A stretch of DNA of 64,000 bases, from positions 31,339 through 95,338 of the forward strand of contig MU858196.1 in NCBI GenBank assembly GCA_033297075.1, in the 5' to 3' direction. A program made the translations under genes and the position numbers. Source of the DNA: Rhypophila decipiens. Taxonomy: Eukaryota; Ascomycota; Sordariomycetes; Sordariales; Naviculisporaceae. The notes beneath the pieces were generated by a model. The model ran no database searches. It was not told the DNA's origin and worked only from the letters and a program-made list of their open reading frames with translations. Shown here in pieces: positions 9,805 to 49,239 of the stretch (position 1 is the stretch's first letter; each line of letters begins with the position of its first letter).

Positions 9805-11594
9805 CTAGTAATCCCTATATACAGCCATCTCTGGACCCGCCTCGAGCTCAGCACGCCTGCCTTGGTGCTCATAAATGCCATTACCCTGGACCTCGTGCAG
9901 ACCAACCGAGTACTTTGTGGAAGGATCATCAACCTCAGCACGCCTACCTTGGTGCTCATAAATGTCATTACCCTGGACCTCGTGCAGACCAACCGAGTAC
10001 TTTTTGGAAGGGTCATCAACCGTTGCCAGCTCGTCGGGGTGCTTGTTGCCTCCGACATTCCCGCGAGATCGCCGACGGGCAAAGAAAAAGTAAGCGACTA
10101 CGACTATGATCAGCGCGGCGACACCGCCCACCACGCCCCCTGCGATTGCGCCGATGTTGGTTTTCGACTCAGACTCGGCGCTGGGAGATGCCGGCCCGGG
10201 ATTGCTTTTCTCCCCATCATTTGGCTCACCGTCTGCACAGTCTACTGTTGCCTCTTTTGACACGGCGACGAGCTTGCTGCTGGTAGACGGGTTAGCCTGC
10301 CACAGGGTAAAAGACTGGGCCTCGTGGTTGACCATTAGGTAGGCACCGGTGAAGAAGTAGCGGCCCAGGGTGGCGGGCTGCTCCCCGACCCCGTTCATCA
10401 GGAGCTGCCTGAGAGAGGTATCGAGGACTCTGGAGCCGTTCCTCAGCAAGTCGACACCAGGCGTTAGGAACTGGCTGTTGGGGATCCGGACCTGCAGCCC
10501 GTTGCTGAGCTGGAAGGTGATGTCCCCATCGAAGAAGGACTCGTTGTAGTTGCGCGCGGACCAGTGCAAGCTATAGGACGGGCCGATGTTAGACATTCCC
10601 ATAGTCGTCTCAACATCATCGACGATGGAGCCAGGCGCTTCCAGGAGCAGCTGGCGGTGAGGCACGATGCAAGTTCGGATGGCGGAATTCTTGGGCAAGA
10701 CGTCCACATCGGTCCCGTTGCGAAAGTTGACGAACAGGCCCGAGACAGTGACCTTCATGCCCGTCCAGCAGCCCGTGGCCTCGCTATAATCGAGGGGCTG
10801 GGTGTAGTTGGCACCAACGACTTTCTCTTCGTCGTAGCCGCCGAGGACGACGTGGCCGTCCATGGCGCCAACGTCGGTCCACATGCGGCCCCAGAAGAGG
10901 GACCAAACGCGGCTGGGGATTTGTCCGGCCTGAACGAGGGCGTTGAGGTAGGTCGAGTTAGAGCCTAGACCGAGGGGAGACAGGGTGGTATAGCCGTTGT
11001 CCCATCGCAGCCGGGGGATCCCGATAGGGAGCGTCAGAGCCTTGGCGGGTCCGACGGCCAGGCTCTCGGTGCCGGCCAGACTGGTGCCAGTTAACTTTTT
11101 GACTCCCAGCTCGGTGCCGGTGGTGGCAATCTCCTGGGTTGCGCCGCCAGCCGAGATGAGATCAGGTGATTTTGCAAAGGTGGACGAGTCGGTCTCGAGG
11201 AAGTAGCCGCCCCTCCTGATCTGGCAGATCAGCTCACTGTAGATGATGGAAGCGTCGCAGTCAGACTGCTCGTCGTAGATGTAGGTATTGTTGAGCTCTC
11301 TGTGCGGATTCCATGTCAGCAAGCCAGGTACGGTAACCCCAAGTCACCCAGGGGCCAGGCGGCCCAGGCCAATGCTTACGCCCATGGAAGCAAGACGATG
11401 TCCTGCGGAGGAGTCCCGATCCTGGCAGGTATTCCCTTCATGAAAGAGTCGCTGATGGAAGGGAGGACCTGGATATCAGTAATGGGCAAGGCGAGTGGGG
11501 TTGCCGACACGCATGCCTGTGTGGCGCCGAGGGCATATCGGGGCCGGGCAGCGAGCAAGGTCAAGACCAGCACAAGAGGGTTCATGGAAATCAT
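9805..11594 (-). CDS. Pepsin-like aspartic protease homologue, membrane-anchored, catalytic Asp not visible
   Basis: Two exons, 11594-11380 and 11299-9805, give 569 residues; the 80-nt intron has GTAAGC and CACAG and joins PWA to ELNNTYIYDEQSDCD. The order is signal peptide (PLVLVLTLLAARPRYALG), the pepsin-type IGTPPQ strand, a two-lobed ectodomain with several N-glycosylation sites, one transmembrane helix (AIAGGVVGGVAALIIVVVAYFFF) and a cytoplasmic tail. The usual DTG/DSG triads are not seen: after IGTPPQDIVLL comes PWAELNN, and the second lobe reads GSIVDDVETT. This points to a non-catalytic cell-surface member of the fold. The tail ends in two 29-aa near-identical repeats (EVDDPS-KKYSVGLHEVQGN type). 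The gene is divergent from GH47, with a shared 470-bp promoter region. Confidence 0.8.
9847..10020 (-). repeat. 87-bp tandem duplication inside the coding sequence
   Basis: Two copies offset by exactly 87 nt (29 codons) encode the repeated cytoplasmic tail of the aspartic-protease-like protein. They differ at a few positions only, so the duplication looks recent. Confidence 0.75.
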
Positions 11595-26290: not shown

Positions 26291-28506
26291 TCAGGCACTC
26301 CCCGGCATCAACTGATCATACTCGTCGGGCCTAGCACCCACTTCCTTTCCACGGGTGACCTCCGGCAAGGCCTCATAGTGCGAGTACTTGGAGATCACGC
26401 CGCCTTGTTCATCCACTGAGCTCTCTCCGCTGACCATTGAGTAAAGAGGGTGGTGCTTGCCTTTTCCCTTGAGAACAAACACTCTGGTGTTGCCCAGTTC
26501 GCTCCAAGGGATGATGGTTCCTTGAGTCTGTTTTTCAACCCGTTTTGTTAGTATTTTTGTGGATCTGGTGACAAGTAAGAAGAAAGTAAAAAAGGTGTGA
26601 GAGGATGAGAGAGAGTGGAGAGGAAACTTACATTGACAGCAATCCAAGAAAGCCTATCAGCCAAATAACCCCTGACCGCATCGCCATCAAACGGACTGTC
26701 AATCTCGGTAATGTTGCTATTCGCAGCATCATGGTACAGCGGGATGGTCAAGGACACGGAAGCCCTAGACAAAACACCATCGTTGTGCTGCTGAGCGCAG
26801 TTGGGACATACACTGGCTGCCTCGCTCCCGGCGGTGTTACTGGTCCCCGGAACCATCGAACTGCTAAATGTGTACACCGATCCAACATGACGGGGGAGCT
26901 CCGAGACGGTAGTGGCTACATGGCCAGCACCGAGGATGCTCGGAGCGGCCTGAGCTGTCCCCAGGGACTGGATGGTCTCCTGCTGCGGTGCATCGCCGAG
27001 GAAGAAGTGGATCGTGTACGGTGAGCCTCGGTTATGGCCGTATCGGTCGTAGATGACGTTGATGACATAGTCATCCACGCCCTGGTCTGCGAACAAGGCC
27101 GAACCGCCAACCTCCCCATGGGACGAGAAGACACCGTGGCGGTCCTTGAGAATGACGTCGCCCGTGTGAGGGTATGAATCGGTGATGTGGCTCCGGATCC
27201 GCTGCTTGTAGGCGGCGTCGTCTTCGCCGGTGCGGCGTTGGAGAACGTCATACTGGTACCCCAGGGTTGTCCAGTCCCTGATGTCGTTGGAGTTGAAGTA
27301 GTCAACACCCCTCTCGCCGTCGAATTTGTGGCGGAAAGGAGGGAGGTCGTCAAGGGGGGATGGCGTGTCTTTGTCTGTGAACCAAACGTCATCGTACAGG
27401 GTCTGCCACATGGCAAAGTAGTGGTCGATGTTGCAGTGATGCATGAAGAAGATGGGGTCGAACGCGGCGACAGGCACGTCCATCATGTGGCCGATTCCGC
27501 TCTTGTAGGTATCGCCACCGACAAAGTTGTGCAAGTTGTTGTGGATGTACTCGAGCGAGATCCACTCCTTCCAATGCGGGTCAGTTTTGGGATTGTGCAT
27601 GACGGTGGACGAAAACTCTGCCCAGGTGGGATTCTTGTCTCCGAGCAAGAGGCGGTAGACCAGGTCGCTGACCGCTAGCTTCTCGATGTGGAGGTCCGGG
27701 TCAGCTGAACCGTAGTATTTATGGGCGTTGATGGCTTTGGCGATTTGTTCTGCATTGCTCTTTCCTTCGGATTCTTGCTCCGTGGGCTCGGGGTGATGTA
27801 CGCCATACCGGCTCGTTCCGGAGCATTTCGACCAGGGGTGATCGTCAGAGTCGTCGACAGTGTACGGAGAGGGGAGATCTCCCATTCTCGTGAGCTTCCC
27901 GTCCTTGTACAGCTGGTATCGGTACAGTGGGTTGTCGACGGGTAGGGGAATAGGCAGAGTCCCGTCGGCGTTCGGAGGCTGACGGACCTCGATCTCGGCG
28001 GGTTTGAATAACTCTGGAATCTCGCCCTCGTAGGAAGGACGAGCCCAGTCCCAATAGGGCAGGCGGAAGGAGTCTTTTCCCTTGATCCAGGTTTGTTTCT
28101 CGGCGTCGCTGTTGAACTTGAGCTCGTTTTCAATGACCTCGTTCATGATCTGCCACAGGGTCTGCTCAAAGAGGGCCATGTACGGCCGGTGCCAGGTTGG
28201 GAAGGTCAACAGGTTGTGGTTGCAGTAGATGAAGTGATCATCACCATAGTCGTGCTGGGGTCCCTTGGAGTAGTCCCAGCTGACCCCGTATGGCCAACCA
28301 TGGATGCCGGCGATCTGGAAGTACGAGAGCCGGTCCGTGTACGGGCGCTTGTACCATCGGATCAGGGCGCGGATGAAGAGCGAGACCTGGATGCTCTCCT
28401 TGGGCTTGTCGGTGGCAAACGCAGTGAACTCCTTCCGGATTCCTGGGCTTCCATCCACAGGCGGGATGCCCCGAATGTCGACGAACTGATATCCTGGTGG
28501 AGGCAT
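26291..28506 (-). CDS. Tyrosinase / polyphenol oxidase
   Basis: Exons 28506-26632 and 26527-26291 give 703 residues; the 104-nt intron has GTAAGT and AACAG. The start at 28506 (MPPPGYQFVDIRG) is the first ATG of the conserved N-terminus. CuA ligands appear in YFQIAGIHG, YCNHN (with the Cys of the usual Cys-His thioether) and FPTWHRPY. CuB ligands appear in YIHNNLHN and FMHHCNIDHYF. It is a type-3 copper enzyme that hydroxylates monophenols and oxidises o-diphenols. The C-terminal region (GTIIPWSELGNTRVFVLKGKGK) is the usual fungal lid part. Tyrosinases occur in dikaritin clusters (UstQ in ustiloxin, PhomQ in phomopsin). Here the core peptides lack Tyr, so its role may be different, or it may serve melanin. 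Confidence 0.92.
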
Positions 28507-29163: not shown

Positions 29164-29512
29164 TTTTTCTGCTGCAGATAAAGGCGCCTAATATTCAGGC
29201 ACCACTACTTTCATATACAAGCACTAGTCCAATTTCACTTTCTCAAGGCATTTATTCCAACTGGTTAAGGCCTCTATTCTAGCCAGTCAAGGCATTTATT
29301 CAAACCAGTCAAAGTATTTATTCTGACTAGTCAAGGCATCTATTCTAATTCAGTCAAGACATATATTCAAGCTAGTCAAGGCATTTATTCAGGCAGTCAA
29401 GGCATTTATTCAAGCCAGTCAAAGCATTTATTCAAGCCAGTCAAAGCATTCTTTCTAATAAGAGTAGTGCCTGTATATCAGGCGCTTATATAAAGAAAGA
29501 AAAAAGAGATTT
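29164..29512. mobile_element. MITE-like element with internal minisatellite
   Basis: The left end (29164-29212) and right end (29461-29512) are imperfect inverted repeats: AGGCGCCTAATATTCAGGCA on the left pairs with TGCCTGTATATCAGGCGCTT on the right. Between them, about 29242-29455, lie roughly ten tandem copies of a 21-23 nt unit of the form TCAAGGCATTTATTCAAGCCAG. No coding capacity is present, so it would be a non-autonomous element. Confidence 0.6.
29242..29455 (+). repeat. Minisatellite, 21-23 nt unit
   Basis: There are about ten head-to-tail copies with substitutions and small length changes. The consensus is close to TCAAGGCATTTATTCAAGCC plus AG. It is enclosed by the inverted repeats of the MITE-like element. 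Confidence 0.75.
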
Positions 29513-30779: not shown

Positions 30780-31703
30780 ATGCCCTTCACCATAAGCACC
30801 CATATGGCCTTCTTGGCCGGCTTAGGCGTTGCCCTGGCTCCTCTGGCTGTTCCTTGGTTGAAACAACTTGTTCTCGCCGACCAAGTCGGGCTGATTTCAC
30901 CGCTGAATCAGTCCATATCCTCGACCAAGCAGAAGCTCGCACAGCTCCTCCCTAGTCACGACCAAGAAACGAGCTTCATATGCCAGCCACAAAACTACAC
31001 GACCCAAATTATATCTCTTGACCCGCTGGTCATGTACATCCACAACTTCCTTCACGAGAAAGAGATTGAAAACATCCTCGCCGTATCCGAGCCCCTGCTG
31101 AAACCCTCGACCGTCACGAAAGACGGCGTGACCACCCGTTCGGAATACCGAACATCGTGGAGTGCCGAAGTCCCGCGCGAGAACCCCGCCGTCCAGTGCA
31201 TCGAGGAAAGAGTGTGGCACTTCATGGGCACAATGATGGCGCGGGGCAGGGACACCGTCGAACCGCCCCAGATTGTGCGGTATACCTCGGAGCAGAGGTT
31301 CAAGGTACACCACGATTGGTACGAGGGCCCACAGCGGGAGCGGCTGGGCCGTCGCAGGGCATGGAACCGGCTTGCGAGCTTCTTTGCCATCATGCAGGAC
31401 AACTGCACCGAGGGCGAGACGTATTTCCCGCACGTCATGCCGTACACGGACGCTTCGAGAGACTCGGCGGTTGATAGGGAGAACAAGGTGTGGAGGGGAC
31501 ACGAGGATGGGGGCTTGGCTTTTCGGCCTATAAGAGGGAACGCGCTCTTCTGGGTGAACCTCTTTCCGAACGGGCAGGGAGACGAGAGATTGGCTCACGC
31601 CGGGCTGCCCGTGAAAATGGGCGTAAAGACGGCCATGAATATCTGGCCGAGGCGGTATACGGGACCTGATGCGTGGGATCCTCCAACTGCGCAGTCTGTT
31701 TGA
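30780..31703 (+). CDS. Prolyl 4-hydroxylase-like 2OG-Fe(II) oxygenase
   Basis: A single exon encodes 307 residues from the ATG at 30780 (MPFTISTHMAFLAG). A hydrophobic N-terminal segment (FLAGLGVALAPLAVPWL) suggests a signal anchor and ER-lumen location. The catalytic domain shows VRYTSEQRFKVHHDWYEG with the iron-binding His-x-Asp, the fungal insertion GETYFPHVMPYT, LFWVNLFPNGQGDER, and the distal HAGLPVKMGVKTAMNIW with the second His and the Lys that binds 2-oxoglutarate. This is the prolyl 4-hydroxylase alpha-subunit (P4Hc) family, which hydroxylates Pro or other residues. Its place between the tyrosinase and P450 genes, 8 kb from a Pro-rich RiPP precursor, makes the precursor cores (PKPPI) a plausible substrate. 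That link is inference. Confidence 0.88.
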   Translation: MPFTISTHMAFLAGLGVALAPLAVPWLKQLVLADQVGLISPLNQSISSTKQKLAQLLPSHDQETSFICQPQNYTTQIISLDPLVMYIHNFLHEKEIENILAVSEPLLKPSTVTKDGVTTRSEYRTSWSAEVPRENPAVQCIEERVWHFMGTMMARGRDTVEPPQIVRYTSEQRFKVHHDWYEGPQRERLGRRRAWNRLASFFAIMQDNCTEGETYFPHVMPYTDASRDSAVDRENKVWRGHEDGGLAFRPIRGNALFWVNLFPNGQGDERLAHAGLPVKMGVKTAMNIWPRRYTGPDAWDPPTAQSV

Positions 31704-32649: not shown

Positions 32650-34504
32650 CTACGATGGTGAAGCCAACTTGACTGGCATCAAAGTCCCATCGACCGGTTT
32701 TGCCGTGACTCTCCTCGTCTGCACGTCAAGAAAAAAAAAAAAGAAACATTAGCACATCTCTCTCTTTGTCACATATGTGCTGGGAGGGTTAGAGTGAAGT
32801 TAGGCGCCTACTCACATTATACAGCTCCTCCCTGACCTTGAACTGGCCATACTCATCCACATCGTTCGAGACACTCTCTCCCAGTCCCACTTTCACAAAC
32901 TCGTACTTCCTCGCCACAATAGCAATAATGACTCTACTCTCCAAGTTGGCCAGCTCCTGTCCCATACAATTTCTCGGGCCCCTCTCAAACGGCCGCCAGG
33001 CAGCCGCTGGGATATCAGCATTCTTCTCGAGCCACCTCTCCGGCACCCACTTATCTGCGTTATCGCCATAGACTGCCGGGTCACGTTGGATGATGGACTG
33101 GCATGAATAGAGTATCAAGCCATCAACGAGATAGTCCTTTTGGCCATCTGTCGCCGAGGTACGAAGCGTGAATCCGCTGCCTGGGGCGGCCATACGCACG
33201 GTGCTGGCTGGGGGATGCAGGCGGAGCGTCTCTTTGATCACTGCGTTGATGTATTTCATCTTGGGAAAGATGTCTTCACTGTGCGAGAGCAGACGGGCAC
33301 AGATGGCGGCGGGGTCGGTCTCTGGGCCGAGGACCGAGTCAAGCTCCTTGCGGACTGCCTGTAGTGCGCGGGGTGTGCGGGACAGCTCGTAAAAGGCCCA
33401 TTGGAGAGACGAGGTGAGGCTATCGTGGCCGGCGAAGAGGAAGGTGCGGACTTGGTCAGATGTCTCGGTCAGTTTGGAGGGGGTGAGCAGGGTCTCGGTG
33501 TCAGAATCTTGGAAGGAGAGCGCGACTATGCTACTGATATCCTTGGTGGTGCTACTGCTGGACCTTTGTGATTTGGCCTCGGCATACTTTTGACAGACTA
33601 AGGCGCGGACCAGAGTATCTATCCGCTTGCCCAGCCGGCGGCGCTTGTAGTGCACTCGGGGAATAAGCCACCAGGGGAGGTTATTCTTGTCATCGGCGTA
33701 GGTGCGCAGAAGCTCCCACAACAGGCGGATCACTTCGCCTTGCTGGCTGCGGTCCAGATGTTGGGCGTTGAGATCTACGTACAAGACTGCGGCGCCAATG
33801 ATGTCAAAGGTCAGATTGGAAATGATGGTTTCGATGGGAAAGACTTGGTTAGTGGCGGCGAAGTGGTCGAGATGTTGGATGAAAGGCTTGGTCTTTTCCA
33901 GAATCAAGGGTAGGAGAGTCCATAGATGCCGCGAGGTGAAGCCTGGAGTGTAGCGCCTGCGAAGGTCCTTCCATTCATGCCCCTAAATATTGAAATATCA
34001 GCGTCGGTCGGAGATAATGAGGCCATTGTTCCTTACTTCTTTGGCCAAGATGGACGTCATTCCGATGATAGGGGCCATGTGAGTCCAAGTGGGAGATTTT
34101 GTGGGGCTCAGAGGAAACAACTTGGATGGTCTCGAGACCTGCTCTGCGACTTCGTGCGTCGTTACTAGGAGCATTGGAGCAGAGACTGGTCGTAGGTCTA
34201 CAAACATAATGGGGGGCTTGCCCTTAGCCTCCCACATCTCCTCGAATATTTTATCTAGGGCGAGGTTAAGATCATATCCTCTAAACTAAAGAGAGCGCAA
34301 TGGTGCGACTTTACCAGGATGACGATCATTAGTTCCGCGCTTAGTGAGCTCTCCAAGTGTCTTGAGGTGGCCCCAAAGGAGACTTGTAGGAAGTTGCGGG
34401 ATGTGTTCATACTGAGCGAAGCGCAAATATCGTAGTTTGGTCACTTTGGTGTAAAGGTATGAGGATAGAAACGTGGCGGCCGCGAACAGAACGGGGATCA
34501 GCAT
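32650..34504 (-). CDS. Cytochrome P450 (four exons)
   Basis: Exons 34504-34315, 34254-34037, 33982-32816 and 32718-32650 give 547 residues. Introns are 60, 54 and 97 nt with GTAAAG/CTAG, GTAAGG/TTAG and GTGAGT/GCAG ends. The joins restore HPG-DKIFEEMWEAKGKPPIM, ILAKE-GHEWKDLRRRYTPGF and EELYN-TRRVTAKP. An N-terminal anchor helix is present. Motifs are the I-helix FAGHDSLTS, the ExxR KETLRLHP, VPERW and the haem loop FERGPRNCMG. The enzyme is an ER-bound monooxygenase with unknown substrate. Its position next to the prolyl hydroxylase, pointing towards it, fits a biosynthetic cluster. Confidence 0.88.
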
Positions 34505-35904: not shown

Positions 35905-36095
35905 CAACCCGACCTCAAGATGCCAGTCCACAAATTCTTATGCAACATGAGTCTTCTTTTCAGTCCATCCCATCAAGATCAAGTTCAAATATCCATCTCT
36001 CAAACCCCAAACAGTCAAGATAACCACCGACATTTGAAACCCTTCCTCGCTCCATTGAAAAGCTCTAACCAGACCATCAAAAAACTACATCAATC

Positions 36096-37315
36096 ATGAC
36101 AGCCACCACCACCACCACAACCTCCCCTCCCAAATCCCTCTCCCTAGGCATGCGCCTCCAGACCGGCCCAGTCCGCCTCTTCCTCGCCTCGCAATTCTGC
36201 GCAAAAATCGAACCCGTGGCCCTCTCCCCGACGACCTCCCTGGCCGGCAAGTCCGCCATCATCACCGGCGGCGCTTCGGGCATCGGCTACCACGCCTCGC
36301 GCCAGCTCCTCGGCCTGGGCCTGTCCCGCCTCATCCTGGCCGTGCGATCCCCCGAGAAAGCCGAGTCGGTGACCGAGCAGTTCCGCAAGGAATTTCCTTC
36401 TTCCAAGATCAAGATTGAGATTTGGCAGCTGGAAATGACTTCGTACGCGTCCATCCAGGCGTTCAGCCGGCGGGTCAAAAGCGAGGCGCCCGATGTCGAT
36501 ATTGTGATTTTGAATGCCGGCGTGACGCATATGAATTTCGAGGTCAACGCCGAGACGGGCCATGAAAGGGTGGTTCAGGTGAATTACCTGTCGACGGTGT
36601 TGTTGGCGGTGCTGCTGTTGCCGACACTGACTGCTGCGGCAGCACAAAAACAACAACAACAACAACAACAACATGATGGAAAGAAGCAGCAACAACTCAA
36701 GAGGTTGACCATCGTCGGCAGCGGGGTGGCGTACATGACAAAGATCCCGAACCGAGAGAAACGCCCGTTTCTGGCGTCGTTTGATGATCTCAAGGTGCAG
36801 GCCTGGGATCCGTCGGAGCGGTACTGCACCTCCAAGGCATTACTCCATCTGTTTCTCGTCCAGCTGCTGGAGTACCTGCCGAGTGCTGACAACACGGGAG
36901 TCGTTGTCAATATCGTCTGTCCGGGGTATTGCAAGGGCAGCGGACTACACAGGGATTCCGAGGGAGTGATGGGCATGTTGTTGGCTGCGAGCAAGAGCTT
37001 GACGGGGCGGACGCCCGAGGAGGGGGCCATGAGCTACGTGGATGCGGTTGTGGTCAAGGGGAAGGAGTCGCATGTGTGCTTTTTGCTGGATTGCAAGGTT
37101 ATGCCGTGAGTTTTTCTTTTTTCCCTTCCCGTTGCTTGTCTCCTGGTGGGGTTGAGTGTCTTTGAAAGCTAATGAATCGTTCGCGGGTTGATAGATTCAT
37201 GAATATGGTGTATACATCTGAAGGCGAAACCCTCATGAATGTATTGTGGGACGAGACCATGGCCGAGTTGGAATTTGCTGGAGCGCGAGGGATTCTCGAG
37301 GGGCTGCGAAAGTAG
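36096..37315 (+). CDS. Short-chain dehydrogenase/reductase
   Basis: Exons 36096-37105 and 37195-37315 give 376 residues; the 89-nt intron has GTGAGT, a GCTAATG branch site and ATAG. The Rossmann motif TGGASGIG (about residue 58) binds NAD(P). It is followed by NAG, a Ser in VGSGVAY and the catalytic YCTSK. This is the retinol-dehydrogenase/WW-oxidoreductase-like SDR type common in fungal biosynthetic clusters. An insertion of about eight Gln plus a KKQQQ run (from CAA repeats, 36649-36700) sits between strand beta-4 and the catalytic Ser and is not typical. The enzyme would oxidise or reduce an alcohol/carbonyl pair; the substrate is unknown. Confidence 0.88.
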
Positions 37316-38246: not shown

Positions 38247-38615
38247 ATGATCCCCACCAAGCTCATCGCCCTCGTCGCCTCGGCCCTGGCCGCCCAACCC
38301 GCCCTGGCCGGCCCAGCCCACGTGCTCGTCTACTTCGGGGCCGACTGCTCCGGCAAGAGCACAGAACTGCTCGTCAACGACAACTCGTGCGTCAACGCGC
38401 CCTTTCGCTTCCTGTCGTACAAGGAGCACGGCTGGGGCAGCAAGGGCCAGCGCCTCCGCTTCAACTCCAACTCGTGCGGCGGCAACGAAGGCCTGCTCTA
38501 CGACACGTGGGCCTATAACGGCGACTATTTCCAGTCGGGCGCCTGCTATAACCTGCGCCAGCACGCGCCGGCGGGCAAGGTCGATGCTGTTAGCATTCGC
38601 TCGCAATCCGGTTGA
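38247..38615 (+). CDS. Small secreted four-cysteine protein
   Basis: A single exon encodes 122 residues. The signal peptide is MIPTKLIALVASALAAQPALAG, with probable cleavage after ALA. The mature part of about 100 residues has four Cys (GADCSGK, NSCVN, NSCGG, GACYN) and is rich in Gly, Tyr, Asn and Ser, a beta-rich composition. No Kex2 sites or internal repeats are present, so it is not a RiPP precursor of the type found next door. A clear TATA box and CT/CA-rich leader suggest strong expression. A host- or surface-directed secreted protein is possible; no family is recognised. The third-codon positions are strikingly C/G rich compared with flanking DNA. Confidence 0.75.
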   Translation: MIPTKLIALVASALAAQPALAGPAHVLVYFGADCSGKSTELLVNDNSCVNAPFRFLSYKEHGWGSKGQRLRFNSNSCGGNEGLLYDTWAYNGDYFQSGACYNLRQHAPAGKVDAVSIRSQSG

Positions 38616-39596: not shown

Positions 39597-40070
39597 CTAA
39601 GCGTCGAAATCAACACCTGCATCAAGGATAGGCGGCGCGGGGCTGCTAGCGGTAAAGTCGACGCCCGCGTCCATAATGGGAGGCTTGGGGCTACTGCGTC
39701 GAGCCTTCTTGGCATCGAAGTCGACGCCCGCGTCAAGAATAGGCGGCTTGGGGCTGCTGGCCGTGAAGTCGACGCCCGCGTCCATGATGGGGGGCTTGGG
39801 GCTGCTACGACGAGCCTTCTTGGCATCGAAGTCGACGCCCGCGTCAAGAATAGGCGGCTTGGGGCTGCTGGCGGTAAAGTCGACGCCCGCGTCCATGATT
39901 GGAGGCTTGGGGCTGCTGCGGCGCTCGTTGGCTATTTTTACCGGTTAGTAAGTCAAGAGCTGTCCTGGAACCGTGTGGTCTGGTCATGTACAAGAGGATA
40001 AGAACTAACCAAGCGGTGCCGAGAGGGCGCCAATGGCAAAGAGCAAGGTGGCTGCTAGCTGGAATTTCAT
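39597..40070 (-). CDS. Dikaritin-type (UstA-like) RiPP precursor with repeated cores
   Basis: Exons 40070-40010 and 39931-39597 give 131 residues; the 78-nt intron has GTTAGT, a TTACTAACC branch site and AATAG. The order is a signal peptide (MKFQLAATLLFAIGALSAPL), a short leader ANERR, then three 37-aa units. Each unit is SSPKPPIMDAGVDFTA plus SSPKPPILDAGVDFDA plus the spacer KKARR; the third unit lacks the spacer and has PAPPI in place of PKPPI. Arg-Arg after each spacer and after the leader fits Kex2 cleavage in the Golgi, as in ustiloxin, phomopsin and victorin precursors. Cores lack Tyr, Trp and Cys; Phe is the only aromatic residue. A UstYa gene starts 830 bp away in divergent orientation. 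The cyclised product is unknown; that this is a RiPP is a strong inference from precursor plus UstYa. Confidence 0.9.
39600..39920 (-). repeat. Tandem 111-bp repeats encoding the RiPP cores
   Basis: Three units of 111 bp (37 codons) are present, the last without its spacer. Each contains two 48-bp half-repeats. Units one and two are nearly identical at the DNA level, while the stop-proximal unit has diverged most (ATC/AAC codons near the end, and Ala for Lys). Confidence 0.85.
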
Positions 40071-40898
40071 GTTGGATGGTTCAACTTGTGTCTGGGACTT
40101 TGTGTGTATGTTTGAAATGTTGTGATATGAGGGTATGAAGGTTAATACGGAGGGAAGAAGTCGGGTGTTTATAGTCCTGACTGGTGAGGCAAGTTGGCTC
40201 TGAGGCAGGCATCGGAGTTGGTAAAGTTGTTGGTTGATATCAGAGTCGTAGTCGATGGCAGACTTCGCCGCACCAGGCTCACTCTCCGGCGCTCACGGGG
40301 AGGCGGCCCATCTCGGCCTCGTCAGCATTGAAGAACCGACGACCATCCGAAACCGGTAAGGGAGAATGATTGGTTGCGATTGCTCGAGGATGACAGTTTT
40401 TGAGAGCGTGAGCCCAACGAGACACGAATCCTACTGTGTCATCACACAAAGTATCGCCGAAGGCCTCGAATAAATGAACAGAGAACTTTGGTACTCTCAC
40501 GGACTTGCCTAGGTAGGCATGTGACACATAGCTTCAACTCTTTGCACAGCCGTGAATATGCGTGCCAACAACGGCGTGTCATGACTCGGTTCGGATCCTG
40601 ATGGTTAAAGCAGGCTTATCATCAGAAAGGTATTGGCTCTTGGAAAGACTGCCAGTTCAACCATCGAGCTGGAGATATCTGACAGGATTGAAGATACTTG
40701 TCTTCGCCGAGGATCTCTGAGTCACCAGACACTTGTCCGTTTCCGGGCTGAGACTCCCAACCTTGCCCTGTCCCCGACTTTTACTTCTCGTTATCTTCCC
40801 ATTACTCACTCCTGCTTTTCTTCAGAGTGTTGAAATCCACTTGGCCAAGGTGAAGACTCAAACTCAGTCCATCATTTGGAACTATACTAACACCTACT
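40071..40898. promoter_or_regulatory. Shared promoter region of precursor and UstYa genes
   Basis: This 828-bp stretch separates the divergent precursor (minus) and UstYa (plus) genes. A TATAAA on the minus strand (40173-40168) lies about 98 nt upstream of the precursor ATG. Divergent pairing would allow co-regulation; no specific regulator site is claimed. Confidence 0.5.
40168..40173 (-). promoter_or_regulatory. TATA box of the RiPP precursor gene
   Basis: TATAAA on the minus strand is 98 nt upstream of the start codon at 40070. Confidence 0.5.
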
Positions 40899-42032
40899 AT
40901 GGAGAAAGTCACCTTTAAGCTCCCCTTCCCCAAGCGTCATGCGGTGGAAACTTATGAGCCATTACTCGACGGAGAAGGAGAGGACCAGAACTGCCATGAC
41001 GAAGGCCGCTGCATCCAAATAGTCAACAAGTCTGCAGAGACTCAAAAGATATCCATCCTGCGTCGCCTTTTCTTGACCGTTACAGGATTGTACGTCGTCT
41101 TCTCTGCTGTCACGTTATTTGTTCTTGCAAAGGATCGCGTACCACAGCCGTACTGTAAGAGAAGCAGAGACCCCAAATCGCATTGAGGACCATACTGACG
41201 AGGTAAAAAAGCCCCTGCCAACCACCTGCTATCATATCAACGACAGCGACTTTACTTTGGCGAGGACGAAAAGTTCACTGGGCACCCCAAGAACGTCGAC
41301 GAGGCGTGGGATTACCTCCTAGAACGTAAGTACCTACTCCCCAGCGTGGATGAGTTTCCCAATAAACGAAGCTAACCTGGTTGACGCTGGTACTGTAGCT
41401 ATCAACATCCGCGCGACAGAGAAGGAGCTCCAGCAAGCCCGGGCTGAGTTCAGCGATGATATCGTTCGCCTTGTCGATGGCGACTACATAGCCGTACTCT
41501 CCGTTCATCACGAACTGCATTGTCTAGTACGTCTCTTTTTCTTGCCCAGATTAGTACACTACTCCCGTGCTGCTTTTACCGTTGCTTTGCGGCTCTGACT
41601 GACATGGGCCGATGGAACAGGATGCTCTCCGCAGGAACATATTCCCCGAGTACTACTATGACCTGAACAACACGGCGGACAAACAGATGAACATTGCCCA
41701 CATGAGTAAGTGTCGGCTCTTGGATCCCATTGAGACGTACGGTACGACTGACATGTCTGTGTTTATTAGCACATTGTGTGGACACTATCAGGCGCAGTCT
41801 GATGTGCAAGGCAGATGTGTCTCTGTACACGGCGTACTGGATCGGGGATCATACTGCCGTTCCGAGCAAGGAGCTGCGTTCCAAGTCTGATACAGTCTGT
41901 GTTAACTGGGACGCTATCGATGGATGGGCAAGGCAGCGACTGCTGCCGCAAAACAAGTATTTGGTCCGTCCTGGTCCTTACGAGACCGAGACCAAGGGGA
42001 CTCAGGGGCACAAGAGCCATCATGATGACTAA
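40899..42032 (+). CDS. UstYa-family (DUF3328) oxidase
   Basis: Exons 40899-41154, 41212-41325, 41399-41526, 41621-41705 and 41770-42032 give 281 residues. The first acceptor (41211) could instead be at 41202, adding three residues. A membrane helix near residue 60 (LFLTVTGLYVVFSAVTLFVLA) anchors the protein, with the catalytic part in the lumen. Both diagnostic HxxHC motifs are present: HELHC in VLSVHHELHCLDALRRN and HMTHC in AHMTHCVDTIRRSLMC. They are followed by YTAYWIGDHTAV and CVNWDAIDGWARQR. UstYa/UstYb-type proteins install the ether or C-C cross-link that cyclises dikaritin RiPPs. The neighbouring repeat precursor is the obvious substrate. Only one UstYa copy is seen here, whereas ustiloxin uses two. 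Confidence 0.92.
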
Positions 42033-42473: not shown

Positions 42474-43487
42474 ATGGAGATGATCAAAATTGTCGCTGCC
42501 TTCTTGCTACTCCTTTCACCGACTCATCACACCGTGCTGGCAGCCATGACCGAGGAAACCGGGACCGTCGACTTTGCGATTCCAGGCCTTTCAGAGCCCG
42601 CCAAGACGTGGTACAGAGTTCTTGGCGGCCGCCTGAAAGCGCCAGATAGCATCCCTCTGATCATCCTCCACGGCGGGCCGGGCGCCTGCCACGACTACCT
42701 CCTCCCGCATTCAGACCTTGCCAAGCCGAATCGGCCCATCGTGTTTTATGACCAGATTGGGAACGGCCGATCCAGCCACTTTCCCGACAAGGCCGGCGAC
42801 GAATCCTTCTGGTCTGTCGACCTCTTCGTCCGAGAGCTGGACAACCTACTCGCCCACCTAGGTCTGCAAACCAAAAGCACACCGATTGATGTCTACGGGC
42901 ACTCATGGGGCGGTATGCTAGCCGCCGTCTGGGCTTCCAGACCATCGGACAAGGCTCCCAAGAACCTGCGCCGGCTGATCATCTCCAGCAGCCTGGCCAG
43001 CATGGACCTGTTCCAAGCGGGCGTCAAAACCCTGAGAAACAAACTCCCGCCCGCCGTCCAAGAGGTGCTAGACAGGTGCGAGAAGAAGAAGGACTTTGAG
43101 AGCCCCGAGTACGAAGCCGCGGTGGAGGTGTTCTACAAGCGCCACCTGAGCCTCACGCGACCCTGGCCGGCGCCCGAGGTCCAGGCCGCGCTGGACTGGT
43201 TCGCCAGGGACCCGACGACCTACGGGACAATGTACGGCCCGAGCGAGCTCTACGTCTCGGGCTCGCTCCGCAACTGGACCGTCATACCGCGTCTGGACAG
43301 GATCCGGGTCCCGACGCTGCTGCTCAATGGGCGCGAGGACGAAGCGCAGGACGTCGCTATGCAGCCTTTTTTCAACCTGATCAGCAAGGTCAAGTGGGTT
43401 ACTCTTGAAGCTGCTGCACACTTTACGCATGTTGACCAGCGGGGGAGACACATGGAAGTGATCCGGGAGTTTCTGGCAACTGAGTAA
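42474..43487 (+). CDS. Secreted proline-iminopeptidase-like alpha/beta hydrolase (S33)
   Basis: A single exon encodes 337 residues. It starts with a signal peptide (MIKIVAAFLLLLSPTHHTVLA). The family oxyanion motif HGGPG is followed by FYDQIGNGRSS, the nucleophile elbow GHSWGGMLA, the acidic residue in LLNGREDEA and the catalytic His in AAHFTHVDQRG. This is the S33 proline-iminopeptidase group, which removes N-terminal Pro or acts on related amides and esters. Most members are cytosolic; the signal peptide here puts it in the same secretory route as the RiPP precursor. It lies 441 bp after the UstYa gene, in the same direction. Trimming of the Pro-rich core N-terminus after Kex2 cleavage is a reasonable but untested role. 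Confidence 0.88.
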   Translation: MEMIKIVAAFLLLLSPTHHTVLAAMTEETGTVDFAIPGLSEPAKTWYRVLGGRLKAPDSIPLIILHGGPGACHDYLLPHSDLAKPNRPIVFYDQIGNGRSSHFPDKAGDESFWSVDLFVRELDNLLAHLGLQTKSTPIDVYGHSWGGMLAAVWASRPSDKAPKNLRRLIISSSLASMDLFQAGVKTLRNKLPPAVQEVLDRCEKKKDFESPEYEAAVEVFYKRHLSLTRPWPAPEVQAALDWFARDPTTYGTMYGPSELYVSGSLRNWTVIPRLDRIRVPTLLLNGREDEAQDVAMQPFFNLISKVKWVTLEAAAHFTHVDQRGRHMEVIREFLATE

Positions 43488-47085: not shown

Positions 47086-49239
47086 ATGTCGCCAGTCATG
47101 GAGCTTCAAAACCGTGGCACCAAGTTCGCGTCCAAGGACCACCACTCGGAGCACGATATAGCCGGCGGAATCGGCACGGAGGGATCGGGTTACACACGAG
47201 ATGACCGGGACTTGATCCGGCTCGGGAAGCGGCCGGTGTTAAGGGTCAGGATCAATCAACTCGGCAATAGGCACATACCTACCTACTATGAACTTGAACT
47301 GACGTGATGTTTTATTTAGCGAAATTTCGGGTTCATGTCCATTCTAGGCTTCTCATGCACCGTGCTGATTACCTGGGAAGGCATGTTTGTGTTTGTCTCA
47401 CCTCACCCGCTCACGTATTGCCTTGAAAGAAGAACAAAGCTGACAATGATACAGAATCTCGACCTCGAGTCTACTCAAGTATGAGCCCGTCATATCTCAT
47501 ATACCAAGTTTAAATGAACAGGCTCTAACCTTGGACAAAGTGGTGGTCCGGCAGGATTGCTCTGGGGATATCTGATCGTCTGGGTCGGCATGATGTCGAC
47601 ATACGCTGTGCTGTCTGAGCTGGCGTCCATGTGGGATCCCCCATACCCGTCGATATATGTACACAAGTTTGGACTGACCACGCAACAGGGCACCCACTGC
47701 AGGCGGTCAATACCAGTAAGAAAGACCCTTCCAGCCACGGCCGACATTACCCATTAGTATTATCATCCAGTCCTACTGACAGCTAACAACCAACAAAGCT
47801 GGGTCTCCATCCTAGCACCAGACTCGTCCAGAAAGTTCCTAAGCTACCTGACAGGCTGGCTCACAATGGCAGGGTGGCAAGCGGTAACAGCCTCGGCAGC
47901 CTTCCTGATCGGCTCCCTCCTCCAGTCCACAATCGTGCTAGCCAACCCGTCCTACGCGCCCGAGCCCTACCAGACGATGCTCTTCCTCTGGGCCATACTA
48001 GCCTTTGCAGTCTTTATCAACACCGTGGCGAGCAAGACACTTGCTCACTTTGAAGGCATGATATTGGTCTTGCACATCCTTGGTTTCTTCGGCGTCCTGA
48101 TCCCGCTGGTGTACTTGTCTCCTCATGGGGACGGGAAAGCTATCTTTACCACGTTTGTGAATTTCGGTGGGTGGGAGACACAGGGTCTGTCGTTTATGGT
48201 CGGATTACCTGCTTCGGTGTTTTCGCTTGTTGGTGCGGATTCTGCTGTTCATGTGAGGATTGAATAATCATTTATTGGGTTCAGTGAGTTGACAGAGCTG
48301 ACAAAACACAGATGGCGGAAGAAATCCGGAACGCATCGACGGTCGTCCCACAAGCCATCATGTCCAGTATTGTGCTGAATGGAATCCTTGGTTTCGCCAT
48401 GATGACGGGCTACCTCATTTGTTTTGGGAATCTCGAGACCAACCTCGAGGCAGTGCTGGGGTCCTATGAGACTCTTGGATTCCCGTTCCTGTATGTCTTC
48501 CAGACAGGGACGGGCTCGACTGCCGGCGCGGTGGTTATGAGCTTGATCATTGTTGTTCTGGGGATTTGTAGCACCGTTGGGGTGTTGGCGTCTTCGTCGA
48601 GGATGTTGTGGTCCTTTGCTCGGGATAGGGGGATTCCGTTTTGGAGGACGTTTATCAAGGTAAAGGAATCTGGCACCTACTTGGGACGGTTGAAATGTGG
48701 TCGAAACCATCATGATGTCCGTCAGCTAATTACCCGCGTCTCCTCGCCAGCTCAACCGCCGAACCTCAATTCCAGTCTACACGGTCGCATTCACAACCTT
48801 TGTGTCAGTCCTCCTCTCCCTCATCACCCTTGGATCAACAGTGGCCTTCAACAACATCGTCAACCTCAGCGTAGCGGGCCTCTACGCGTCGTACCTGCTC
48901 AGCTGCGGCCTTTTGCTCTGGCGTCGCCTGATCACAGTCGGTGGAATCCAGCCGTACAATACAGCTGGTGGGTCTCTTATCGGCCCGGGAAAACTGCAAT
49001 GGGGACCGTGGCGAATCCCTGGGATATTGGGCGTGGCGAACAACATCTTTGCCTGCTGTTTTCTGTTGTTGCTTTGGGTCTGGGCTTTCTTCCCGCCTAG
49101 TACCCCTGTGACGCCCGAGACTATGAACTTTAGTGTTTTGACGTTTGGTGCTGTGGTGTTGTTTGCTGTTGTTTGGTACTTTGTTCAGGGGAGGAAGGAG
49201 TATAAAGGTCCTGTTGTGGAGATTGAGGCGGATCTGTAG
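47086..49239 (+). CDS. GABA/amino-acid permease (APC family), eight exons
   Basis: Exons are 47086-47244, 47320-47384, 47455-47468, 47522-47630, 47689-47715, 47799-48252, 48312-48659 and 48751-49239, giving 554 residues. Two are microexons (14 and 27 nt). Joining them restores ITWEG-IISTSSSNLGQSGGPAGLLWG and ELASM-APTAGGQYHW-VSILAP, both strongly conserved in fungal GABA/choline permeases. About twelve transmembrane helices follow. The protein probably imports or exports an amino acid, choline or related amine across the plasma membrane. Its location at the edge of the RiPP region makes a peptide or precursor transport role possible but unsupported. The donor after the 14-nt exon is weak (GTCTAC), so skipping would cause a frameshift. 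Confidence 0.88.

Follow-up and report, generated by a model that had tools for sequence, protein, structure and literature searches.

The window analysed here, a 64,000-nucleotide stretch of Rhypophila decipiens DNA, carries a gene that probably encodes a dikaritin-type RiPP precursor, one whose core repeats lack Tyr, Trp and His and whose product would be cut by Kex2 and cross-linked, possibly at Phe, by the UstYa (DUF3328) protein encoded next to it. The observation of a repeat-bearing precursor as such is confirmed. Two points would add to the known class, namely the presence of two cores in each Kex2 unit and the pairing of the UstYa gene with a gene of the proline iminopeptidase family.

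The first-pass annotation had placed the precursor at 39597..40070; these coordinates are correct, and our analysis adds that the gene lies on the minus strand, where two exons encode a product of 131 aa (Table 1). The reading frame is identical on both sides of the 78-nt intron, and the intron is required since the unspliced frame runs into stops. The protein starts with a hydrophobic signal-like segment (12-residue hydropathy peak 2.38) followed by ANERR, which bears out the signal peptide and leader first proposed, with hydropathy as the sole measure of signal peptide and secretion. The gene occurs at a single place in its own genome (45.7 Mb, 408 contigs).

Table 1 Coordinates of the precursor, its repeat units and the neighbouring genes within the window.
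Feature	Coordinates	Strand	Details
Tyrosinase with Tyrosinase_C domain	26548..28506	-	PF00264 E 2.2e-40, PF18132 E 5.3e-13
2OG-Fe(II) oxygenase	30780..31703	+	PF13640 E 1.9e-6; nearest UstYa match 10 kb off
Cytochrome P450	32789..34504	-	PF00067 E 7e-48 on 32792-33982; N-terminal exons from three-frame translation, limits approximate
Short-chain dehydrogenase (SDR)	36096..37315	+	PF00106 E 1.5e-23 on 36069-37106; last exon from translation, approximate
Precursor exon 2	39597..39931	-	ANERR, six 16-aa cores in three Kex2-type units, stop
Core 6, SSPAPPILDAGVDFDA	39600..39647	-	Lys -> Ala; stop directly after, no KKARR
Core 5, SSPKPPIMDAGVDFTA	39648..39695	-	
KKARR, putative Kex2 site 3	39696..39710	-	
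Core 4, SSPKPPILDAGVDFDA	39711..39758	-	
Core 3, SSPKPPIMDAGVDFTA	39759..39806	-	
KKARR, putative Kex2 site 2	39807..39821	-	Site 1 is ERR before core 1
Core 2, SSPKPPILDAGVDFDA	39822..39869	-	Counted from exon 2 limits
Core 1, SSPKPPIMDAGVDFTA	39870..39917	-	Counted from exon 2 limits
Precursor intron	39932..40009	-	78 nt, GT-AG, GTTAGT...CTAAC...TAG; CTAAC branch-like; in-frame stops inside
Precursor exon 1	40010..40070	-	Start codon and signal-like segment (MKFQLAATLLFAIGALSAPL); N-terminus aligns with P0001
Shared upstream region of the divergent precursor and UstYa genes	40071..40898	.	828 bases between start codons
UstYa/DUF3328 gene	40899..42032	+	Five exons 40899-41154, 41212-41325, 41399-41526, 41621-41705, 41770-42032; 281 aa
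Alpha/beta hydrolase, proline iminopeptidase family	42474..43487	+	337 aa; N-terminal hydrophobic segment; GHSWG nucleophile-type motif

Downstream of ANERR, a SSPKPPIMDAGVDFTA-SSPKPPILDAGVDFDA pair of cores is repeated three times, with KKARR after pairs 1 and 2. At the DNA level a 111-bp unit recurs cleanly in tandem: its three copies are 81-100% identical to the reference one, Tandem Repeats Finder gives the array a score of 515, and it is plainly not due to chance. Across the six cores, the variable columns at codon positions 1, 2 and 3 number 3, 2 and 13 (of 16 each), and pairwise codon differences are 81 synonymous versus 23 non-synonymous, against a synonymous share of 23% expected of random single changes; these counts are descriptive and carry no formal test, since related copies are being compared and their pairs are not independent. 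The mostly synonymous differences suggest selection on the peptide and point to this frame. The three units of two 16-aa cores described in the first-pass annotation were found as such, whereas only two KKARR spacers are present and the third unit ends ...DFDA-stop; likewise, the core PKPPI(M/L)DAGVDF holds for five of the six cores and reads PAPPILDAGVDF in the sixth. Phe is indeed the sole aromatic residue in the 106 residues after ANERR, where His is also absent.

With near-identical repeats, Kex2 sites between them and secretion as judged by hydropathy, the protein classes among the Kex2-processed repeat proteins (KEPs), with which it shares the signal-like start and the dibasic sites. Alternatively, the array could form part of a secreted repeat protein with a structural or cell-surface role, from which no repeats are excised. 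Wall proteins often have Pro-rich tandem repeats, and successive cores meet without a dibasic site at three of their five junctions (TASSPK), but the dibasic sites recur in register, both full units of the relative described below are KR-flanked, the protein is short and a UstYa gene adjoins it, so that we regard this alternative as quite improbable.

A search of about 5.8 billion proteins, with 7,990 candidates scored, returned at E <= 1 a single relative of the precursor, the partial 72-aa protein BJ875DRAFT_361114 (P0001) of Amylocarpus encephaloides (Leotiomycetes; E = 1.4e-7), and no homologue beyond it; with a longer composite precursor probe, none of 7,996 scored candidates reached E <= 10. 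P0001 has a similar signal-like N-terminus followed by ASPKPPLSDAGVDF and ASPKPPLADAGVDF, and its pairwise alignment with the precursor spans the splice junction. The two proteins have the motif SPKPPxxDAGVDF in common, and differ in their spacers and in the number of cores per unit: each core of P0001 sits inside its own KR-flanked unit, whereas here there are two per unit. The retention of SPKPP and DAGVDF marks these as the conserved part and the units as conserved. Precursors with the same core beside DUF3328 genes had been named as the thing to search for; one relative was thus obtained, with UstYa adjacency in the R. decipiens genome only. No Amylocarpus name stands among the 19 UstYa homologues at E <= 1e-10, so the link between precursor and UstYa is seen in one genome. 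The Amylocarpus encephaloides genome is reported to have one predicted RiPP cluster among 34 clusters (PMC8351168), which may or may not be that of P0001. Searches of viral contigs (with the UstYa alignment and P0001 as queries) and of GTDB genome contigs (with the UstYa alignment) turned up no confirmed relative, in keeping with the fungal nature of the gene.

The UstYa gene is transcribed divergently from the precursor, with its start codon 829 bp from that of the latter. Its product matches PF11807 (E = 4.7e-43, 148 bits versus a cut-off of 25), a score computed on a model with three extra residues from a different first-intron end; the first intron was then set to 41155-41211 from homologues, which yields QPYSPANH and 281 aa. 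Among 574 candidates, 19 homologues were found at E <= 1e-10, the best in Podospora didyma (Sordariales; 67% identity), and the 18 with organism names we take to belong to Sordariomycetes, Dothideomycetes and Leotiomycetes. Solved structures gave no match at E <= 1, and the predicted fold of the Podospora homologue is poor (mean pLDDT 53). The first exon matches only its own place in the genome. The protein carries two HXXHC motifs, HELHC and HMTHC, whose H and C columns are conserved in at least 90% of 20 aligned sequences. Two such motifs are used to mark RiPP-type DUF3328 proteins, and a DUF3328/UstYa protein is the class-defining enzyme of dikaritin pathways (PMC12048977, in its accessible part). 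The contig (C152) holds a single UstYa match place, where the original five-part definition of dikaritin pathways spoke of multiple DUF3328 proteins; the asperipin-2a pathway likewise has one DUF3328 gene (PMC7329392), and the later dikaritin definition, in the text available, does not require several (PMC12048977). The dikaritin-type reading of the first-pass annotation is thus partly supported: the adjacent PF11807 gene, its two HXXHC motifs and the core motif kept in P0001 speak for it.

Published genome mining, as given in the accessible text of the survey, lists 7,878 KEPs, places a DUF3328 gene no more than 15 genes away for 1,758 of these, and finds that DUF3328 genes peak at the gene next to KEP precursors (PMC7329392). 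The remaining 6,120 have none within that distance (PMC7329392), a figure that suits an unmodified linear peptide, secreted after Kex2 processing as a signal, a pheromone-like factor or a defence molecule, with the UstYa neighbour incidental. The absence of Tyr from the core and the lack of a tie between the partial relative P0001 and any UstYa match fit this reading as well. We nevertheless consider it unlikely: unlike most KEPs in that survey, the precursor has a UstYa neighbour, directly adjacent and divergent, in a genome of which about 0.5% lies within 2 kb of a UstYa match, and its protein matches no Pfam family, with pheromone families and the mating-factor domain included in the scan.

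The next gene after UstYa encodes a protein that matches the proline iminopeptidase family TIGR01250 (222.9 bits versus a cut-off of 167.65) and PDB entry 3wmr (E = 9.7e-67). An exon-by-exon TIGR01250 search of the genome gave 17 exon matches, among which four genes reach 135-223 bits (first pieces) and the next place 56 bits; only the iminopeptidase of the window passes the cut-off. Three of these four genes lie 706 (C152, this locus), 1,437 (C26) and 958 (C118) bases from a UstYa match, and the contig of the fourth (C111) holds none. Given the share of the genome near UstYa matches, the probability that two of the three iminopeptidases outside the window would lie there by chance is about 7e-5 if places are independent, a value computed after the pattern was seen and taking no account of the clustering of secondary-metabolite genes. 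The UstYa proteins of C26 and C118 have the first and third best E-values to that of the window among 22 UstYa stretches compared, in a sample that is selected, since both loci were fetched because of their iminopeptidase. Rather than having arisen independently, the UstYa-iminopeptidase pairs may descend from one ancestral pair. If the dikaritin-type reading is right, some UstYa proteins would probably have a proline iminopeptidase as their partner; in the literature searched, we found no paper naming an iminopeptidase together with UstYa or DUF3328.

The two further pairs, L043 (G000:C26:279000-288999) and L044 (G000:C118:91000-98999), have their genes 1.4 and 1.0 kb apart. No Kex2-repeat ORF was present in the 10 and 8 kb read there, so that the pair neither requires a repeat precursor nor occurs only beside one. 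Near the first pair, at L043:7800-8300 (+), a small non-repeat ORF begins with a signal-like segment (MFSKLFIIAALGSATIMALAVPAHPL...) and could be a single-core precursor. These pairs also bear on whether the UstYa and iminopeptidase of the window serve another secondary-metabolite pathway, non-ribosomal or polyketide pathways also using UstYa, with the repeat gene beside them by accident. UstYa proteins do exist outside RiPP pathways according to the accessible part of PMC12048977, and both pairs lack a repeat precursor in the stretch read; but the precursor and UstYa have an upstream region in common and no PKS or NRPS domain was found among the 20 window proteins scanned with Pfam, and we judge such an accident very improbable.

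The same 20 proteins included no methyltransferase, an enzyme that the original dikaritin definition lists, and no kexin. The oxygenase (which we take to be prolyl-hydroxylase-like), the P450 and the SDR to the left of the precursor are possible cluster members. We do not claim the oxygenase and the SDR for the pathway, because their paralogues lie mostly away from UstYa matches: for the oxygenase, one of seven places outside the window is near one, and for the SDR, which has 36 other matches, the five best are on contigs without UstYa and a single weak one (C251) has a UstYa match at a distance of about 5 kb (by eye). A relative of the oxygenase lies 1.3 kb from a UstYa match (G000:C167:62914-63597 and C167:61187-61621). 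The genome is rich in both UstYa and tyrosinase genes, with 67 matches in 48 places and 60 matches, respectively. The tyrosinase 11 kb to the left, an enzyme type that the original dikaritin definition also lists, was considered as a pathway part and judged unlikely; its C-terminal domain and the Tyr-free core place it probably outside. For a peptidase and a transporter, the vicinity offers the iminopeptidase (42474-43487) and an amino-acid permease exon (47758-48264), both with a putative pathway role. Between the SDR and the precursor, 38247-38615 (+) encodes a small signal-bearing, Cys-containing protein of 122 aa that matches no Pfam family. Elsewhere in the window, two 87-bp tandem copies at 9847-10043, in the ORF 9805-11343 (-), encode VDDPS(K/T)KYSVGLHEVQGN repeats after a hydrophobic, membrane-like segment, and about 10 copies of a 22-bp repeat (TCAAGGCATTTATTCAAGCCAG), to which no gene is assigned, occupy 29243-29459.

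The first-pass annotation knew no matching core, and the core words DAGVDF, SPKPPI, SPKPPL, PKPPIM and AGVDFG/-T/-D indeed occur in none of the paper texts searched, a search that stopped short of the supplementary tables of the KEP surveys. Given the published KEP and DUF3328 counts and the nine dikaritin clusters reported for the apple-scab fungus (PMC9632046, accessible part), a new core sequence is expected, not surprising, and common in this class. The absence of Tyr, which had been singled out, holds here; it is not rare, however, as Tyr occurs in 65.6% of the repeats of DUF3328-linked KEPs and about one third go without, according to the text available (PMC7329392).

Compared with known systems, the locus shares with ustiloxin, phomopsin and asperipin-2a a signal-bearing multicore precursor, Kex2-type sites and a UstYa protein with two HXXHC motifs, as those are described in the accessible parts of PMC7329392 and PMC12048977. 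It differs in having no Tyr, two cores per dibasic-flanked unit, an iminopeptidase-family gene as the nearby peptidase and no methyltransferase among the scanned proteins, and its repeats measure 16 aa versus 13, 14 and 8 in the three systems, respectively (PMC7329392). Epichloecyclins (gigA cluster, Epichloe) likewise come from a repeat precursor that has a DUF3328 gene as its neighbour, and their small cluster, in contrast to the scanned proteins here, includes its own kexin gene (PMC7317419, accessible part); their cores are cross-linked at Tyr (PMC9233826), whereas the present precursor is Tyr-free. In victorin of Cochliobolus victoriae, cyclisation joins the C-terminal Phe to an internal Leu, according to the available part of a review (PMC9233826). 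Measured against that description, the precursor here is alike in having Phe as the last residue of its conserved motif, with aliphatic residues ahead of it; by analogy, Phe chemistry by UstYa is plausible here, and the chlorination and host-selective activity of victorin are not claimed for the peptide.

Taken as a dikaritin-type precursor, the protein would enter the secretory pathway, where Kex2 would cut after ERR and KKARR to give 32-residue fragments, each with two SSPKPPI(M/L)DAGVDF cores, and the basic residues would then be trimmed off. In linear, unmodified form, the two 16-mers have calculated [M+H]+ values of 1632.794 and 1628.817, SPKPPI(M/L)DAGVDF of 1373.677 and 1355.721, and the 32-mer of 3242.593. 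Further cuts, to which the iminopeptidase may contribute at the Pro-rich N-terminus, would define the final core. The junction between the two cores of a fragment (TA-SS) is non-basic, so either another protease would separate them or the double core would itself be the unit. UstYa would oxidatively join side chains. The cross-link at Tyr found in ustiloxins and phomopsins cannot be carried over unchanged to a Tyr-free core, and this, together with the Phe-Leu cyclisation of victorin, makes a link between the motif-closing Phe and an aliphatic residue (Val, Ile, Leu or Met) the most plausible one. The P450, the 2OG-Fe(II) oxygenase and the SDR, candidates by their position to the left, may tailor the product. 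A more specific and distinctly doubtful proposal is that a UstYa-iminopeptidase module makes a Tyr-free, Pro-rich cyclic peptide with Phe joined to an aliphatic residue, in which the two cores of a Kex2 fragment mature together into a bicyclic or tandem product and Pro removal by the iminopeptidase (perhaps with Pro hydroxylation by the 2OG oxygenase) sets the N-terminus. If the dikaritin-type reading is right, a family of cores without Tyr, Trp and His would join the expected UstYa substrates and offer a direct test of which side chains can be joined.

Finally, we scanned 20 stretches with UstYa matches, 197,906 bases in all, which cover part of the 34 regions obtained when the 67 matches are merged at 10 kb. 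The scan looked for words of five residues that occur three or more times and are separated by dibasic sites; the only sequence it included away from UstYa was the remainder of the window and the outermost parts of these stretches. The scan flagged 11 ORF rows in the window and six further stretches, from which one row each was kept by eye for five loci, namely the window, L023, L026, L029 and L041. L024 and L036 were dropped by eye as low-complexity noise without KEP-like units; also dropped were one alternative frame of L041 and three of the array in the window. Sorted in this way, another Kex2-type repeat ORF is present in four of the 20 UstYa stretches, and with these four plausible precursor loci the fungus seems, from its sequence, rich in repeat-precursor/UstYa clusters. 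Their repeats bear Trp or Tyr, and the precursor of the window is the only one of the five without Tyr, Trp or His in its repeats. L023:7822-8142 (-), whose stretch holds UstYa matches, starts with a signal-like segment and repeats Trp-containing SAAGVVTWADVSKR units; in L026:2659-3279 (-), close to a UstYa match, PLYSLTAL(V/I) units recur and KR sites are present. L029:739-1062 (+) combines PPPPSW/PPPPDW units with KR sites, and L041:8081-8476 (+) a signal-like start with four TNSYPKYGKA(D/E)DYEAVN units and KR/RR sites, each on a stretch with two UstYa matches.
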